Source of the DNA: Pseudomonadota bacterium
GTDB taxonomy: Bacteria > Pseudomonadota > Gammaproteobacteria > Acidithiobacillales > Acidithiobacillaceae
DNA: 64,000 bases
Assembly (NCBI GenBank): GCA_021821885.1
Contig: JAKARO010000001.1
Coordinates: 1 to 64,000, forward strand
Reading direction: 5' to 3'
The notes under the pieces are model-generated. The model made no database searches. It was given only the letters and a program-made list of their open reading frames with translations, and was not told where the DNA came from. Positions within the stretch are counted from its first letter, which is position 1; every line of letters begins with the position of its first letter. The translations under genes and the position numbers were made by a program. Shown here piece after piece: positions 4,079-13,140 of the stretch.

Positions 4079-4375
4079 CTACTCATTTTTGGTTGAAATC
4101 GGGAACTCACGGCGAGCATGCACCACGTTCACGATCTCAATACAGGTGGCCGTAACACGATAGAGCACCATGTAGTTTGGATGCGCGACGATCTCACGCA
4201 AGCCCGGCACGCGATCGCTGATGCGGTACAGGTAGGGATGCTCTGACAGTGGCAACACACAGACGCGCAGGCGTTCCCACAGGCGTTCGGCTGCACTCAC
4301 ATCGTACTGACCGATGTAGTCTATGATAGTGGCCAGATCGGCGTCGGCCGACTCAAGCCAGAAGATGGGTAGCAT
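4079..4375 (-). CDS. RelE/ParE-family toxin
   Basis: Translation has the ParE-like pattern (IFWLESADADLATIIDYI...YLYRISDRVPGLREIVAHPNYMVLYRV...IEIVNVVHARREFP). Starts on the antitoxin stop (ATGA overlap). Confidence 0.85.
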   Translation of the reverse strand: MLPIFWLESADADLATIIDYIGQYDVSAAERLWERLRVCVLPLSEHPYLYRISDRVPGLREIVAHPNYMVLYRVTATCIEIVNVVHARREFPISTKNE

Positions 4376-4563
4376 CAGGGCGCTTTGCGCTGTTTGAGCC
4401 GTGCCAGTCGCTCGGCCATGCGTCGCTCAATCTCATCATGTGGGATGCTCGGGCGCGGGTCGGCCATGCTGGCGGCAGTCTTGGCCTGCAGCCAGGTCGT
4501 GTAGCTGGCCTCCTGCTCGGCGGTCTCAAACTCGGAGATGATAGATGGTAAAACGGCATTCAT
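4375..4563 (-). CDS. Antitoxin of ParE-family TA pair
   Basis: Small ORF directly upstream of and overlapping the toxin. Start taken at MNAVLPSIISEFE behind a GAGGAG RBS. Confidence 0.75.
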   Translation of the reverse strand: MNAVLPSIISEFETAEQEASYTTWLQAKTAASMADPRPSIPHDEIERRMAERLARLKQRKAP

Positions 4564-5267
4564 TCTGGGCGCTCCTCTAGTATCTATCATCAGTGAGGGT
4601 TTAAACTCCCATGCGGTCCCTAAGGTCTATATTAGGCGGTTTTCGCTCTTGCAGGAACCATCCACAAATTCTGTGCGCCACCCTGTGGATGGAACCAGCA
4701 ACCTAGCGGAGAACATCGGGAAAATCCCCGGCCACCAAAAGCATCCAGATCCTCTGGAAGATCAGGCCGAGCCAGCTTCAACGCCATACCAACCGGCAAG
4801 GTCTAATCTGTGGTTGTCACTGTGACAATATCTCCCAAACGACCGTTTGTGAGAGTCTTCAGGTGCTGACGATTGTTGCAAAGTAAATCAATAAGTTGCA
4901 ATTCTCAAAAATCATTCTTACAAGACTGCTGCGGTTTCCAGCCATGGCGACGGGTTTTGGGAACATGATATACATACCGCCGAATGGCAGCTATCGCTGC
5001 GATGCTGTCGCTCGCGGCCACAGGGCGAAGGGCAGCAATGGGTCGGATGATGCCATTTTATCGCCGCCAATGAACGTCCGCAATCTGTACCTACCCTTCA
5101 ACAAGCAGCCTCGACCGACAGCTCTTGGCCGATACTACTCGTTCCTGTTCCCAGTGGAAATTCTGTTTACGCTGGCAACACCCATGCAGTTATTTCTGGT
5201 CGACGTAGCCAGACTTTGTATTAGTGAGATAATGAAAAAAGTTCTATAGACATCGGGAAGTAGCCGG

Positions 5268-5639: not shown

Positions 5640-5953
5640 CTATGGCTGTTTCCGTTGTCTTACGATAGGTCCTCGCGGATTACAGCGTTGCCGAAGCTGA
5701 TTGCTGGCCCTGAATGTCACCACCCGCCTTGCCTTGATCTGGAAGGGCTCGTTGGACCTGGGATTGCGACCCGGCCTTTCCCGCTTATCCCGCAGGTCAA
5801 AACGGCCGAAGCCGGGCAACAGCAGAGGTGCCCCAGAGGCCAGCACTTCGCGCATGCGGTCAAAAAAATATCGGCCAGCCCCTTGCAGGTTTTGTGGTCA
5901 AGGCCAGGCATGTCTACCAGGAAAGCGGCGATGTCCTGTCTAGTTACAGTCAT
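5640..5953 (-). pseudogene. IHF-alpha/HU-like DNA-binding protein gene with a 1-nt frameshift in a T7 tract
   Basis: N-terminal frame MTVTRQDIAAFLVDMPGLDHKTCKGLADIF and C-terminal frame (D)RMREVLASGAPLLLPGFGRFDLRDKRERPGRNPRSNEPFQIKARRVVTFRASNQLRQR join at GATATTTTTTTGACCGC. One extra T would restore ...DIFFDRMREVL..., the canonical IHF-alpha pattern. Confidence 0.8.
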
Positions 5954-6009: not shown

Positions 6010-6596
6010 GGCGACCAGGACCTTACCAGAAATATAAGTGTACCGCTTCAACCCCATGTCCATCCAGCCGATATCAGCCTGTCTCGCACAGCCATTCCTG
6101 CATATAGGTGGTGGCGTTCTCGCCATCCCCCATCTTCTCGAAACCCATCAAGCGTATCGACTGCGGGCTGATGGGCACCAGCCTGGGGTCGTACAGCGGG
6201 GGGCAACGGGCATGCATCGCGGGGCAAGGCAGGTTCCAGCGCGGCCACGGGCTTCTATGAATGGCAAACTCTGGAATCCGGCAAGAAACAGTCCTGGTAC
6301 TTCGACAGCGCCGATGGGCAGGCGTTAGCCCTGGCAGGACACTGTGGGACCACTGGCATGACGGCAGCACGATCCCGGACAGTTGCACCATTCTGGTGGG
6401 TCCGCCCGATCCTGCCGTCACCGGCATTCATGACCGAAGTCCGGTCCTGCTGGGCGATGCGGCCATGTCGTTGTGGATCAGTCCGGCACTGAAGCCAGAA
6501 GATGTTTCCCGTGTGCTGGCCTTGCCGAACGACACGCTGACGGCGCAACCAGTGTCCCGTGTGGCGGATGATGGACTGTACTTGCTGACAGCCTGA
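6010..6596 (+). pseudogene. SRAP (YedK/HMCES-like) domain pseudogene
   Basis: Frame-disrupted pieces: AATGFYEWQTLESGKKQSWYFDSADGQALALAG, then in another frame LWDHWHDGSTIPDSCTILVGPPDPAVTGIHDRSPVLLGDAAMSLWISP. These are diagnostic of SRAP proteins. The 5' boundary is uncertain. Confidence 0.7.
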
Positions 6597-6742
6597 CGAA
6601 TTCTGCTTCCCGGATAGCAAGGCCAAATCGGTACAAAAAAGCTATAGCAGGACACGAGTCACTTTATCTGGCGTTCCTTTGGAACGTTTAAGTTCATAGT
6701 GACCATATATTTAGTGATGACAACCATCTTGATTTAGGCTGC

Positions 6743-6842: not shown

Positions 6843-7286
6843 ATGCAAAAGTCTATGACGGAACTATTGTCAGGGTTGGTTTTGCCAGAGTGGCCGCAAC
6901 CCAAACCCGCAGCAGAAACCACGGCAGGCACACCCCAGGCACGGTTGGAACCACAGCCCTTGGCGACCCCGGCGCGATCGTCATGGGCAGAACCAGCACC
7001 AGTGGCGGAACCGGCAACCCCGGCCAAGCGAAAAGCCGGACGGCCCCGTATCCACGCCGAGCGCCCACTGTCTGGCCGTGAGAAGGCGGCGCGTTACCGG
7101 CAGAAGCGCAAGACGCTGGCGGCAGAAGCCATGACGGGCAACGTGGATGCCGCGGGCCTGCCCAGCAGGGATCTGTGCCTTGCCGTGGCGCGGATGCTGA
7201 ACCGTCCCAAAGACCTTGAGCTGCGCCAGATCGGGCTGCCCCTGGTGAAGGAACTGAGGCGCAGGCTGAAAACCCTGATTGGCTGA
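6843..7286 (+). CDS. Hypothetical element-encoded protein with AT-hook-like motif (KAGRPRI)
   Basis: ORF with start ATG behind GAGGTG; Pro/Ala-rich N-terminus and basic C-terminal half. First gene of a same-strand cluster leading to the primase-helicase. Confidence 0.7.
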   Translation: MQKSMTELLSGLVLPEWPQPKPAAETTAGTPQARLEPQPLATPARSSWAEPAPVAEPATPAKRKAGRPRIHAERPLSGREKAARYRQKRKTLAAEAMTGNVDAAGLPSRDLCLAVARMLNRPKDLELRQIGLPLVKELRRRLKTLIG

Positions 7287-7473: not shown

Positions 7474-7503
7474 TGTACTTGACCTTGTTTAATGGGGTAT
7501 GAA

Positions 7504-8229
7504 ATGAAACATAGCAAAACGCCCAGCGCATGGGCCAAACTGCGCGCGCACGCTTACCGCCTCAGCGGTATTGCCATTATCCCGGTTATATTGCTTGCCC
7601 AGTTCGGCATATTGCCCCTCGTGCTGGCGGACCTCCTGCTCTCTGTTCTGGTTCTGGCGGCACTGGCGGCAAACGCCACCCATGTATTTGCCATTCTTAC
7701 GGGGGACCAGCAGAAACAGCAAACCGAAGGACAGGCATGGAAAGGCACGGCCGTAACGGTCCAGAACGGCTTTCGGTGGGCACGCCAGTTCTGGACGCCG
7801 GATCGCAATCATCCCCTGCGCGAAGTCGGCGCTATCGGCCTGAACCTGGCCCGTTTCCCCGCCCGGATTGCTGGCCGTCAGCCCGGCGGCAGCAAGACGG
7901 GTGCTGGTGGGCATAAAAAGCCCGCGTCCAGCGGTTCCGATGACGAAGGCGAAGGTGAACCGCCTGCACATCTGCCCCTCATCTGGACCACTCATGATCT
8001 GGCGGCCACCCTTGCGGTAAGTGCCAAGACGCTACAGAACCAGCCGCCGCATCATCTACCCCCCGCTATCCGCATCCCCGGCTGCCGTGGCCCACGTTAT
8101 CGTCTTCAGGATGTGATGGCATGGCTGGATGGCTTTTCTGCTGAACAACGCCCGGCCAGGCCTTTGCCCCGCAAAGTCAGGGGTCGCCCCAGAATTGCCC
8201 TGTCTTTGGGCAACGGGGGTGTGGCATGA
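7504..8229 (+). CDS. Membrane-anchored protein with C-terminal AlpA/MerR-like helix-turn-helix and GRPRI motif
   Basis: Two N-terminal hydrophobic segments (LSGIAIIPVILLAQFGILPLVLADLLLSVLVLAALAANATHVFAIL). C-terminal TTHDLAATLAVSAKTLQ...PPAIRIPGCRGPRYRLQDVMAWLDGF resembles excisionase/AlpA-type HTH. Overlaps the next CDS start. An alternative start exists at 7492. Confidence 0.75.
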   Translation: MKHSKTPSAWAKLRAHAYRLSGIAIIPVILLAQFGILPLVLADLLLSVLVLAALAANATHVFAILTGDQQKQQTEGQAWKGTAVTVQNGFRWARQFWTPDRNHPLREVGAIGLNLARFPARIAGRQPGGSKTGAGGHKKPASSGSDDEGEGEPPAHLPLIWTTHDLAATLAVSAKTLQNQPPHHLPPAIRIPGCRGPRYRLQDVMAWLDGFSAEQRPARPLPRKVRGRPRIALSLGNGGVA

Positions 8230-10916
8230 AGACCGTTGCGGAACTTGTAGCAGAAGACCTGGCCCGTTCCGGGCTAACGCTGGACGACATGCAGGGCAAG
8301 GTGCTGACACATTTTGACGTGCAGCATGTGCTTGGAACGGATAATACCCCCGGTGCGTCGGGGGGATACAGTATCCCGTACCGCCGTTTCACGGGCGAGG
8401 GTGTCGTGGAAAACGGGCAGCCCTTTCTGCGGGTGCGGCTGGTCGGACCCCATTCCCCAGAAACGCCCCGCTATCTTTCCCGTCCCGACACCACGGCGCA
8501 CCTGTACGTCCCGCCGCAGCTTCTGGAGGCGCTTCGGGACAGCAAGGTTGGGAAGACCCTCATTATTACCGAAGGGGAAAAGAAGGCCGTGTCCGCGTGC
8601 AAGGCAGGCTTCCCCGCGGTGGCGCTGGCGGGCATCCAGATGTTCCGGGACTTCCGGGATAAGAACCATCTGGCCCCGGAAATACGCGACATCATACGCC
8701 AGCTTCGCGAAGAAGGCGCCATCGATACCGTGGTTGTCGTGTATGACAGCAACGGGAGGCCCATGACCAAGGCCACTATGCCCAAAAATGCGGCTGAATT
8801 TGGCAAGGGCCGGGAAACGCATGCGGTCGGGGGTGGACAACACGTACTGAATCCCGATGTGTACAAAGCGGGCCGCAAGCTGGCCCAGCTTATCCGCGAA
8901 ACCTTTAACGGGTTGCCCGTCGCGGTTACATGGGTACATCCTGCGCTTGAGGCGGTCAAGGGGCCGCGCGGCGGACACAGCCTGGTGTTAACAGACAAAA
9001 GCCGGGGCATCGACGACGCGCTTATCGGGGGGGGCGGCGAGGAAATAGCGGCGCTGATAAAGGACGCCGCTCACGACGCTGAAGCCCTCAGGCCGGATGC
9101 GGAAAACGAGGGTTATATTCCCCTTGGAACCCTCAACAGGGGTCTGGACATTGCCCTCTGGTCAAAACGGTCAGAAAATTTGATCACATTACCTGGGAAA
9201 GAATTGGTCAACATCAGCACGCTAACCCTCATAGCGGGCAGCTCTTTCCTGGAAACGCATTTCATCAAAATGGACAAGCAAGGCAACGTCAGCATCGATA
9301 ACCAGCGGGCGGCGCGGGCCATTGCGGACGATTGCAGCCTGAATGGCCGGTTCAATGAAGCGGATCGCGTGTTCGGGACCGGCACGTGGCAGGGCGACGA
9401 CGGGGGCTTGATCATCAATTCAGACGATGGCGCGTACAGGCAGGATGGGACCACCGTGCCCCGCATCGCCGTTGGCCGGAAAGCCATCTACACCCGCGAG
9501 GGCACTTATCCTCCACCCGCGTTCCGCGAGGTATCCGACGCGAACTACAAGGCAGTTATACAGAAGATCAGTTCCTCGCTCAGGCAGTGGCGGTATGCCT
9601 CAGAGGTGGGTGATGATCTGGTGATGGGCTGGATGGTGATGTCGGTGTTCCTGGGGGCCATGACATCGCGCCCCTCGCTGTGGCTGGTGGCCCCTCGCGG
9701 GTCCGGCAAGACGCAGTTGGCCCGATTCATCAAATCCTGCCTGGGCGGGTACGCATGGCATACGGACATGGCGAAGGAATCCACCGGGGCCGGTATCCGG
9801 CAGATGCTGCAGCGGTCGTCCAGTCCTTGCATCATGGATGAAATGGAAAAGGACAACACGGACGGCATGTACGTCAACGGCGAGCGGGCCACGGCGGCGA
9901 TTCTCAGCCTGCTGCGTAGTGGATACTCGGCGGATTCCGATGTGCGCAAAGGCACGGCGGACCAGACGGGCAAGAGCTTCCGGGTCATGACCAGCTTTTG
10001 CTGTGTATCCATTGCCGATCCGGCTTTGGAACCCGCCGATCTGACCCGCATTGCGAAGATTTATCTGAAGCCCATCGACCACAGCGGAAAAATTGGCAAG
10101 CCGCCTGCCCTGTTGAGTAAAGAGGACGCCGCGGCATTCTTCTGGGGTACGATCCAGCGGTGGGAACAGTATCAGGCCATCTTCGCCGAAGTGCGGGACC
10201 AGTGGCTGGCCGTTGCCGGAAACGGCGATGCCCGCGAAGTGGATACCTTCGGCGTACTGCTGGCGGCGGCGCTGGCAGCGCGGAACTGCCCCGTGGATCG
10301 TGTGCGCGGCATGCTGGATATGGCCCTGCCAACTCTCATGGACCAGATTCAGGAAGCCCGCGAGGCATCGCAGGAGGCCAACCTGATCCTGGAGACGTTA
10401 TTGTCCCTGCACATCGAGATCCAGCGGCACGAAACCGACGACCGGGGGAACGGGCGCATCCAGCGGGAAAAAATGTCCGTTGGGCGAGCCCTGCAGGCGG
10501 CGATTGCGGTGCGAAACGGCGACGAGGCGCAGGCGCTCGCAGGCGTAGGCATCAGGCTCACCACAGTGGGCGACCAGCAGTATCTCGCCGTTGCCGGGCG
10601 GCATGCCACCCTCGCCAGCCTGTTCCAGGGCACCCGGTGGCGTAAGGACGGTGCATGGTCGGCTGGCTTGCGTGAGGTTGAAGGGGTGATCCGAAATCAT
10701 CCCGTCAAGCTCGATGGAACGCCCAAAAGATGCACTTTGGTGCCGCTGTCCGCGCTGAACATCGAGGCCGACACGCCCATCAGTGCCGAGGGATCGGTGG
10801 TTGCGTTCCCCGGCCCGAAGAACGGCTTTGGGGCCGCCAGCATGAACCGGGCCGGTCCGCCGTCCGCTTCTGACCATCCCGGCAGCGACCTATGCGAAAC
10901 GGACGTTCCGTTCTAG
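8226..10916 (+). CDS. Large replication-type protein: N-terminal DUF3854/TOPRIM-like region plus P-loop ATPase (primase-helicase-like)
   Basis: N-terminal TLIITEGEKKAVSACKAGFPAVALAGIQMFRD...IDTVVVVYDSNGRP is TOPRIM-like. Walker A LWLVAPRGSGKTQLARF and Walker B-like PCIMDEMEKD occur mid-protein. Confidence 0.85.
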   Translation: MKTVAELVAEDLARSGLTLDDMQGKVLTHFDVQHVLGTDNTPGASGGYSIPYRRFTGEGVVENGQPFLRVRLVGPHSPETPRYLSRPDTTAHLYVPPQLLEALRDSKVGKTLIITEGEKKAVSACKAGFPAVALAGIQMFRDFRDKNHLAPEIRDIIRQLREEGAIDTVVVVYDSNGRPMTKATMPKNAAEFGKGRETHAVGGGQHVLNPDVYKAGRKLAQLIRETFNGLPVAVTWVHPALEAVKGPRGGHSLVLTDKSRGIDDALIGGGGEEIAALIKDAAHDAEALRPDAENEGYIPLGTLNRGLDIALWSKRSENLITLPGKELVNISTLTLIAGSSFLETHFIKMDKQGNVSIDNQRAARAIADDCSLNGRFNEADRVFGTGTWQGDDGGLIINSDDGAYRQDGTTVPRIAVGRKAIYTREGTYPPPAFREVSDANYKAVIQKISSSLRQWRYASEVGDDLVMGWMVMSVFLGAMTSRPSLWLVAPRGSGKTQLARFIKSCLGGYAWHTDMAKESTGAGIRQMLQRSSSPCIMDEMEKDNTDGMYVNGERATAAILSLLRSGYSADSDVRKGTADQTGKSFRVMTSFCCVSIADPALEPADLTRIAKIYLKPIDHSGKIGKPPALLSKEDAAAFFWGTIQRWEQYQAIFAEVRDQWLAVAGNGDAREVDTFGVLLAAALAARNCPVDRVRGMLDMALPTLMDQIQEAREASQEANLILETLLSLHIEIQRHETDDRGNGRIQREKMSVGRALQAAIAVRNGDEAQALAGVGIRLTTVGDQQYLAVAGRHATLASLFQGTRWRKDGAWSAGLREVEGVIRNHPVKLDGTPKRCTLVPLSALNIEADTPISAEGSVVAFPGPKNGFGAASMNRAGPPSASDHPGSDLCETDVPF

Positions 10917-10941
10917 ATTTACCGTAGTTCACCTGGTATTG

Positions 10942-10967
10942 ACCCGCCCTCACCGGCGGGTTTTTTT
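10942..10967 (+). terminator. Rho-independent terminator after the primase-helicase gene
   Basis: ACCCGCC-ctcacc-GGCGGGT followed by a run of T. Confidence 0.85.
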
Positions 10968-11186
10968 GTGTCTGAGGCTGGAGGTGGCAGCCGCAGGTGC
11001 AGGCGGCGAGGCGGCAGGTGGGTGTCACTGGGACGGGGGTTGCAGGTAACCTGCCGCGAAAAAGGTAACTGGGCGCGAAAAGGTAACCGGGAAGTAACCA
11101 GTTATTTTTAATTCTTTCATATAGTTAGCACAGCCGGTTACCTGGTTACTTCAGTTACCTGTGAAAATGATACATATGGTGGAAAA

Positions 11187-11223
11187 TTTTTATAGATAAG
11201 ACTGTGGTGGTTATCTATAAAAA
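11187..11223. repeat. AT-rich inverted repeat TTTTTATAGATAA / TTATCTATAAAAA, 11-nt spacer
   Basis: 13-bp perfect arms read directly, inside the iteron region. Confidence 0.9.
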
Positions 11224-11311
11224 ATTCCCGCGTATAGGGGAAAACAGGAAGTAACCGAAGTAACCGATGCGTATATGTATCTGTTTTTATTTGTTTTTTA
11301 CTGTTACTTTT

Positions 11312-11353
11312 TGGTTACTTTTTGGTTGCCTCCCGGCAACCAAAAAGTAACCA
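11312..11353. repeat. 19-bp perfect inverted repeat TGGTTACTTTTTGGTTGCC-tccc-GGCAACCAAAAAGTAACCA
   Basis: Arms read directly; 4-nt loop. Arms contain iteron cores. Confidence 0.9.
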
Positions 11354-11965
11354 GCGGGTTACCGGTGGCAGGCGACGACAGCAGAACAGGCTCAGGCCGC
11401 ACGATTCCGAGGAAGCGGTAGGGTAAAGCACCCCTTTGGGTCAGCACACGGCGGGACGGCCACGGGGAAAAGCCTTTAAGCGGTTTATAAGCTATATCTC
11501 TATTTTATCGACCCCCGGCTGACCGGGAGCGCAGGCGAGCCTTCGGCAAAAGTGGGGGGTCCGTGCTCAGAACCGAAGCCCCCTTGCCGCATGGAAGCCC
11601 AGCAACGGCAGGCAGGGTGGCGACCTCCATTCGGGCGTGATGGCTCTCAGGCAGGATAAAGTTATATCTCTATTTTTTATGTTTAGCCTTAAGAGGGAAC
11701 GCCAGATAAAGTGCTTTTCGTCAGGGTATGGCTTTTCCCGGTGACATCGATGTTGGCCCCCTCATTTCCCCGGAAGCGTTATCGGGACTGGCTCTGCTTC
11801 GGACCGGGGAAGGCCGGGTATCAGACGGCCCTCCCCGTACTCCCGTTGGTGGCAGGGGCGGTTCGATACCGCTTCCGCCTGCACCTGGCAGTCCCCCTTC
11901 TTCCTGACGGTTTACCCCTGACATGCGCCTTGCCAGCCACAAGCTGCGGTCAAACCCCGCCAGCG

Positions 11966-12951
11966 TCACCCGATAAGCTTCACCAGATCTTCCGGTTTCA
12001 GGTGGGTGTACCGCTTCAGCATTTGCATGTTCTTGTGTCCGGTGATGGCGGCGACCTGCATCGGATTCAGGCCCTTTTCAAACAGGCGGCTGGTAGCTTC
12101 GTGCCTCAAGTCATGAAAAGTCAGGCCTTCGATGCCGGCCTTTTTCACGGCCTTGTTATAACTGGCCCGCATTCCTTCTGGCGTATAGGTCCAGACGCGG
12201 CCATCCAGATTTCGTGGCATGTCACGTAGCGTTTGCAGGGCCCTGGTGGTCAGAGGCACGACCCGCCTCTCGCCATTTTTCGTGTCATCCAGTGTTGTGG
12301 TGCGCTGTGCCAGATTCACCTTGTCCCAGGTCAGTCCCATGATCTCACCTTGCCGCATGGCCGTCTCAATGGCGAGAGTGACAATGGCAGCGAGTTCCGG
12401 ATTCAGGGCACGGCAGGCGTTAAGCAGCCGTTCATCTTCGTCACCCACCAGGCGACGGTCACGGCCTCTGGGCAGTTTGGGTTTACGCACAAGCTCTGCA
12501 GGGTTGCTGAGGGCTTCCATGCCCCACTCGGTACGCGCCACGTTGAACAGGTGGGACAATAGGGCCAGGTGTTGGCGGATTTGCCCTCGGCTTCCATGTC
12601 GCGCATGACGGAAGCAATGTCCCGGCCACGAATGGTGGCCAGAAACATTTGGGCTATTGGGCGTGATTGCCAGAGGTGCAGGACGCTAATTTCCTGGCGG
12701 CGCCCCTTTTTTGCGGGGACGACTTCCTCGGCATAACGGGCAAGAGCTTCCCCCAGCGTCGTGCTTTCGCTTTCCCCGCGATCACGCCACACCCCGCGTT
12801 CCATTTCTGACTCGATGATGGTTGCCCATGCCTGGGCATCCGCCCTGGTTCGGAAGGTTTTCGTCTGGGGCGGATATCCCTTGCGCTGAATCTGCACCTG
12901 ATAGCCAATGACGATGCCGTCACGGTCTTTTCTGGGTCGGATGGATGCCAT
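11966..12951 (-). pseudogene. int: Tyrosine recombinase/integrase gene with a 1-nt frameshift
   Basis: N-terminal frame MASIRPRKDRDGIVIGYQVQIQRKGYPPQTKTF...DMEAEGKSANT, then the +/-1 frame LALLSHLFNVARTEWGMEALSNP...ETAMRQGEIMGL...TFHDLRHEATSRLFEKG...ITGHKNMQMLKRYTHL. Catalytic R, HxxR, H and Y are all present. Confidence 0.85.
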
Positions 12952-13063: not shown

Positions 13064-13140
13064 TGGTGGCGCTTCAGGGACTCGAACCCCGGACACGCGG
13101 ATTATGATTCCGCTGCTCTAACCAACTGAGCTAAAGCGCC
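13064..13140 (-). tRNA. tRNA-Met (CAT anticodon), CCA encoded
   Basis: Reverse complement GGCGCTTTAGCTCAGTTGGTTAGAGCAGCGGAATCATAATCCGCGTGTCCGGGGTTCGAGTCCCTGAAGCGCCACCA folds as a cloverleaf. Acceptor GGCGCTT/AAGCGCC, anticodon loop ATCATAA. Confidence 0.95.

Follow-up and report, generated by a model that had tools for sequence, protein, structure and literature searches.

Among the initiators of mobile DNA replication, self-loading primase-helicases are common in phages, satellites and islands, and few of the origins they use have been mapped. The locus described here raises the question whether a dense array of GTAAC repeats, just 3' of such a gene, is the origin of an integrated replicon, as a first reading of the DNA without database searches (the sequence-only reading) had proposed, and if so which protein binds the repeats and how replication would start. 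The array lies in a stretch of 64 kb (the window) from an Acidithiobacillus-group bacterium. On the sequence evidence, region 11046-11362 is very probably the bidirectional oriV of a tRNA-integrated mobile element.

Anatomy of the iteron array

The 13 GTAAC cores of the sequence-only reading, in both orientations, were all recovered at their coordinates (Table 1), its local periods of 8-9 bp and 11 bp are correct, and the near-tandem repeat CGCGAAAA(A)GGTAAC(T/C)GGG is present at 11055-11091. The array is intergenic, as had been claimed, and starts 130 bp past the stop codon of the primase-helicase gene (Rep), behind the hairpin and T-run of a terminator. The two spacers and the centre are AT-rich, whereas the DNA outside the array is 60-65% GC.

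Mirror symmetry was absent from the first reading and emerged in the follow-up. The core-to-core distances across the array are 19, 18, 11, 43, 8, 9, 97, 9, 43, 11, 33 and 11 bp, of which the series 11-43-8/9-97-9-43-11 is mirrored. The order is thus outer array, AT-rich spacer, inner array and AT-rich centre, followed by the same parts in reverse. The inverted repeat of the centre can fold into a hairpin (DNA z -5.4), and the outer right array contains a strong hairpin (DNA z -8.95) and a degenerate GGTTGCC copy at 11324-11330.

The window holds 67 GTAAC pentamers where 37 are expected. Its densest 320 bp contain 13 of them, and the maximum in 200 Markov-1 simulations of 64 kb was 4. The origin claim had been made to depend on the motif not reaching a similar density elsewhere in the genome. 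Elsewhere in the assembly (1.74 Mb, 91% complete), a search for three nearby cores returned one isolated GTAAC triple, on contig C6, so the array has no counterpart of similar density there. Comparison of block 10917-11710 with plasmids by blastn gave no match; phages were queried with the Rep protein only.

Table 1. Features of the replication module, the array and its surroundings (window coordinates)
Feature	Position	Strand	Basis
Inverted-repeat motif GGAACGCCAGATAAAGTG, left border of replication module	6660..6677	-	
147-aa protein, no family match	6843..7286	+	
Membrane-segment protein, AlpA/excisionase-like helix-turn-helix at C-terminus, overlaps Rep start	7492..8229	+	PHROG_66 E=2e-4
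Rep, 896-aa primase-helicase	8226..10916	+	Pfam, PHROG primase families, AlphaFold model
Intrinsic terminator after Rep, CCCGCC..GGCGGG then T7	10943..10968	+	read from sequence
Candidate replication origin, 13 GTAAC iterons, mirror-symmetric, four arrays	11046..11362	.	
GTAAC cores, outer left	11046, 11065, 11083, 11094	+	
GTAAC cores, inner left	11137, 11145, 11154	-	
GTAAC cores, inner right	11251, 11260	+	
GTAAC cores, outer right	11303, 11314 (-); 11347 (+); 11358 (-)		
Outer left iteron array, four cores spaced 19, 18 and 11 bp apart	11046..11098	+	
AT-rich spacer 1 (putative site of melting), 38 bp, 68% AT	11099..11136	.	
Inner left iteron array, three cores spaced 8 and 9 bp apart	11137..11158	-	
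Centre, 92 bp, 66% AT, inverted repeat 11181-11199 / 11211-11228	11159..11250	.	
Inner right iteron array, two cores spaced 9 bp apart	11251..11264	+	
AT-rich spacer 2, equal in length to spacer 1 (38 bp), 74% AT	11265..11302	.	
Outer right iteron array, cores 11303 and 11314, then 11347 + and 11358 -	11303..11362	-	
Inverted-repeat motif GGAACGCCAGATAAAGTG, right border of replication module	11696..11713	+	
Tyrosine integrase, one frameshift between about 12560 and 12610	11966..12950	-	three-frame reading
tRNA-Met(CAT), probable attachment site	13064..13140	-	

The candidate initiator and its C-terminal domain

Rep carries an N-terminal DUF3854/TOPRIM region at aa ~111-194 (PF12965, 33.5 bits against a cut-off of 23; E=4e-8), matches PHROG primase families, and has an AAA+ helicase domain with the Walker A sequence APRGSGKT at aa ~489-496. 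Its AlphaFold model resembles MCM, SaPI5 PriRep1 and D5 helicases at low TM-scores, which are explained by the weak whole-protein model (pLDDT 64.8). No significant match was found when the Rep profile was compared with PDB sequences, and Pfam gave no DEXDc helicase match. The comparison with P4-type replicons in the sequence-only reading survives as a functional analogy; homology of Rep to the P4 alpha protein does not, as profile comparison with hhalign found no similarity (probability 1.7%). The same reading left the iteron binder open between the products of 8226-10916 and 6843-7286. The former is the likely binder, and nothing was found in favour of the latter, which matched no family in Pfam or PHROG.

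Within Rep, we infer that the iterons are read by the C-terminal domain (aa ~730-841). The SaPI Rep and the isolated C-terminal domain of Cch2 bind iterons 3' of their own genes (PMC7581432), which makes this a natural reading. The model of this region is confident (aa ~700-850, pLDDT 92.7). A fold search of BFVD matched one phage protein, S-CAM8 (E 6e-6, TM 0.62), and a fold search of the PDB gave no match (best E 0.29). The order of elements, H-H-beta-beta, looks winged-helix-like by eye; since no library match supports it, a winged-helix fold is not asserted. Profile comparison detected no similarity between this domain and the C-termini of the remaining array-linked helicases; the pattern they share is visible by eye only. 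Given this and the missing PDB match, which count against the origin reading, one shared reader is at most a possibility. A search of IMG/VR with an alignment of helicase plus C-terminal domain produced no confirmed hit. Between the window and the related genome G025, where the iteron changes from GTAACC to GGAACC, most wing-like residues of the domain differ, a single pair that proves nothing.

The C-terminal domain also occurs fused to Bro-N or Ant-like N-termini, in genes immediately past the array (L015 and a second copy, L017, in G007; L013 in G004). These fusions suggest that it is a portable DNA-reading module. The fusion proteins are perhaps copy-number regulators or antirepressors that would compete for the same iterons.

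The element, its relatives and a survey by layout

As far as the sequence tells, the array belongs to a mobile element integrated at tRNA-Met and carrying a frameshifted integrase. Integrase and tRNA lie side by side; the left border is missing because the window begins at the start of contig C20, and the far end of the element is thus off the contig. The frameshift could be decay, an assembly error or programmed frameshifting. An intact homologue of 347 aa occupies the corresponding place in G025 (L174 ORF 1661-2704); the integrase is also intact in G018 (A. sulfurivorans) and seemingly split in G023 (3306255-3307274). Given the frameshift and the missing left boundary, the window copy may be defective. 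That the replicon is an integrated one, as first proposed, is supported by a family of such elements in tRNA genes with 53-65-bp direct repeats in two other genomes. Both borders are visible in G023 (53-bp direct repeats, 16.6 kb), where tRNA-Met also carries the element, and in G018 (65-bp repeats, 16.1 kb), where a tRNA-Arg adjoins it. In G025 the element likewise adjoins tRNA-Met. No tRNA was found near the arrays of G007 and G004.

The replication module consists of the small protein, the AlpA-like gene, Rep and the origin. Inverted GGAACGCCAGATAAAG copies flank it in the window, G018 and G023, and the latter two also have a similar small protein and, before Rep, a gene similar to the AlpA-like one. 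With respect to int, the window and G025 have the module in one orientation, and G018 and G023 have it in the other, which, together with the inverted borders, suggests inversion or module exchange via the repeats. Regions 5703-5953 and 6244-6600 of the window resemble, in apparently degraded form, genes that the elements of G018 and G023 possess, IHF-alpha-like and SRAP/HMCES-like (YedK). A type I restriction enzyme R subunit at 15-2102, cut by the contig start, is likely cargo or a neighbour, and a RelE-like toxin with a small partner ORF at 4079-4590 is likely a toxin-antitoxin pair.

An array paired with Rep is found again in relatives, an autonomous plasmid among them, and this recurrence strengthens the claim that the array is a candidate origin of an integrated replicon. 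Homologues of Rep (58, 41, 42 and 29% identical; others near 25%) have an iteron array in the equivalent position; its layout is identical or similar, and the iterons differ, among them GGTAACA, GGAACC, GGTAAGG, GTAAGGG and TGTAACC. The two AT-rich spacers are equal within each of five origins (core-to-core 43/43, 30/30, 44/44, 62/62 and 31/31). Expressed as gap lengths between cores, they are 25/25 in L022 of A. sulfurivorans (Rep 58% identical, GGTAACA), where the array lies one polA gene farther from Rep; 38/38 in L007 of G025 (C-terminal part 63% identical, GGAACC); 57/57 in L005 of G023 (Rep 41%, GTAACC); and 26/26 in L010 and L004 (Rep 42%, GGTAAGG). The layout is less regular in L003 (Rep 41%, GTAAGGG) and L008 (Rep 29%, GGTAACA). 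The centre in the window is 78% identical to that of the G025 locus despite the different iteron there. L005 has a second, TGTGCGG array between Rep and the GTAACC array (4458-4743, repeat TGTGCGGA/TCCGCACA), and the G023 element may thus have two origins of different specificity.

Farther afield, the iteron is TGTAACC beside the more distant homologues of G357 and G363, GGTAACG and AGAACC in two gut phages with distant Rep homologues, GTAACA in Serratia phage MQ-4 and, in a MAG from a proteobacterium, GTCCATG. No array lies near Rep in two Bordetella phages whose C-terminal domain is similar, which counts against the origin reading. The Arsenophonus plasmid paPv15 has 13 GGTAACA iterons in four arrays 3' of its Rep homologue, with unequal spacers of 39 and 54 bp. 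This case matters because paPv15 is an autonomous replicon.

A survey by layout was made in IMG/VR with the inner dyad alone. Its two orientations gave at least 119 and at least 118 loci, and a control motif of the same composition gave 31 in a complete search. Arrays of at least eight cores within 200 bp were present at 219 of the 237 matches listed, against 5 of 31 for the control with its own motif. A primase-helicase-type protein lay within 1 kb of 138 of these 219 arrays among the matches listed (control, 3 of 31) and faced the array with its 3' end in 129; a further 27 of the 219 were too close to a contig end for a neighbour to be called. The search dictated the inner dyad but not the outer spacers. 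Among the matches listed, left and right outer spacers agreed within 1 bp at 30 of the 95 loci with both outer neighbours; shuffled pairs gave 11.1, and at most 22 in 5000. The p-values are overstated, however, because the loci are not phylogenetically independent. The outer distances at these 95 listed loci peak at 21, 31 and 43-44 bp, each approximately a multiple of the helical turn, and those of the window, 43 and 43, fall in the last group. Pfam assigned representative neighbours to D5_N/DUF5906, VapE, DUF927 with Cch HTH, NrS1-HBD, Prim-Pol, TOPRIM with Zn-ribbon and AAA_25. The proteins form one cluster only through chained BLAST links and belong to several Pfam families, and we therefore speak of a class rather than a family. 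Some match AAA_25, which is RecA-type, and not the AAA+/D5 helicase families, and this counts against the origin reading.

Proposed initiation, alternatives and known systems

In the mechanism that we propose, the C-terminal domain of the adjacent primase-helicase would bind the GTAAC iterons as double-stranded DNA. Rep subunits would gather on the outer and the inner array to either side of each AT-rich spacer, on one helical face, after which both mirrored spacers could melt. Two oppositely oriented helicase rings would then be loaded and travel outwards from the dyad as they unwind, sending forks both ways, with the TOPRIM part of Rep as the primase. The mirror could represent two PICI- or P4-like units fused.

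Other roles for the array can be considered. The repeats could mainly be single-stranded start signals for the primase on melted DNA and not double-stranded helicase sites. NrS-1 PrimPol starts at 5'-TTTGGTTA-3' (PMC8718748); this sequence overlaps GGTTAC and is present in the array (TTTTTGGTTAC), NrS1-HBD proteins stand beside such arrays in IMG/VR, and the SCCmec primase also prefers the iteron sequence (PMC7581432). The NrS-1 site is read as single-stranded DNA by an AEP primase, a class different from that of Rep. However, the iteron stays constant while the primase type varies (DUF3854 TOPRIM, Zn-ribbon/TOPRIM, AEP PrimPol, none), and strict helical spacing with mirror symmetry suits cooperative binding to double-stranded DNA better; priming sites are therefore an unlikely explanation. 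Hardly more attractive, and if anything slightly less probable, is a second cis-required site comparable to P4 crr, with the main origin elsewhere in the element. P4 crr likewise lies just 3' of alpha and a terminator, beside attP and int, and the iterons of P4 ori and crr, GGTGAACA, are close to GGTAACA and opposed across a 35-bp AT-rich spacer, much like one unit of the array. Yet P4 needs two loci about 5 kb apart, whereas the mirror layout may already combine two P4-like units in one block of 320 bp. Neither the window nor the assembly has a second GTAAC array, and the small plasmid paPv15 has one detected array.

A centromere or operator, bound by a partition protein or repressor, would also be in keeping with a repeat array, since parS sites and operators typically have this form. 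Bro/Ant proteins with the C-terminal domain of Rep adjoin the array in G004 and G007, which makes some regulation plausible. On the other hand, ORF reading and partial Pfam scans recognised no ParA/ParB-like gene close to the array, whether in the window or in the other genomes read (G018, G023 and G007), and the constant neighbour in the survey is a primase-helicase whose 3' end faces the array. We regard this role as improbable. Integrase arm-type or excision control sites near attP are the least probable reading and can be largely set aside. In the window and G025 the array does lie beside int, and once the elements of G018 and G023 are drawn as circles it is on their attP side. Its distance to att nevertheless varies (about 1.7 kb, 1.3 kb and 0.77 kb), the arrays of G007 and G004 have no detected tRNA nearby, and inversion of the replication module with respect to int leaves the array beside Rep. 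Both arm sites and a partition site are thus disfavoured by position and neighbours.

Among known systems, the closest published layout for the proposed origin appears to be that of PICI/SaPI elements, P4 being merely a functional analogue. PICI origins (SaPIbov1, EcCICFT073) lie immediately 3' of rep and have two element-specific iteron sets around AT-rich DNA, and rep-ori drives autonomous replication (PMC6092414). The proposed origin shares the position 3' of a primase-helicase with an AAA+ class helicase, element-specific iterons and probable chromosomal integration. It differs in having four arrays, with the iteron-flanked AT-rich region present twice, as two mirrored units around a central palindrome, and in the DUF3854 TOPRIM of its initiator; a similar layout also occurs in phages and plasmids. 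The window element, which is incomplete, is not classed as a PICI. ORF reading together with partial Pfam scans recognised no packaging or interference genes (terS and others) in the elements of G018 and G023, both complete. In SCCmec (Cch2/CCPol-MP) the helicase C-terminal domain binds repeats directly downstream, as we propose for Rep, and the primase starts at the bound repeats, but these are only three AAGTG direct repeats and mirror arrays are not reported (PMC7581432). CyRepA shares DUF3854 plus a helicase domain with Rep, and CyRepA2 of cyanobacteria supports plasmid replication (PMC10079941). Its helicase is a C-terminal DEXDc domain, unlike the AAA+/D5-like model of Rep (low TM), and the text of that paper does not mention iterons. 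CyRepA2 is reported to require a region upstream of its gene and is discussed as a rolling-circle replicator, in contrast to a theta origin on the 3' side, which counts against the origin reading.

An origin 3' of rep with iteron sets around AT-rich DNA is already known from PICIs (PMC6092414). Measured against the open-access literature, the four-array mirror and its equal, helically set spacers are new (subscription papers on phage origins could hold parts), as are a DUF3854 initiator in this context, the family of Acidithiobacillus elements, and the occurrence of the layout in phages and plasmids. The published statement that the PICI layout occurs in no other bacterial replicon needs revisiting. 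It is possible, though we lean slightly the other way, that GTAAC-type mirror origins form one widespread class across phages, plasmids and integrated islands with differing primase domains. Such origins would be platforms of fixed geometry (outer array, a spacer measuring whole helical turns, inner array, dyad, then the mirror image) that place two helicase rings symmetrically, their iterons being read by fast-evolving, swappable C-terminal domains that could also be shared with regulators. If true, this would overturn the view of the layout as confined to PICIs. Recurrence of the mirror layout in distantly related phages, plasmids and islands, beside different replication enzymes, makes it a testable general design. 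A signature of layout alone (GTAAC core, fixed helical spacing, mirror symmetry) finds origins, so that origin location, helicase loading geometry and initiator-iteron specificity become testable across hundreds of elements.

Several related elements have a family A DNA polymerase beside Rep (L022:8759-11173 and L178:3200-6400), and G007 has an SSB-like ORF there too. These neighbours are reminiscent of the polymerase-SSB primase pairs of mobile elements (PMC10061031).
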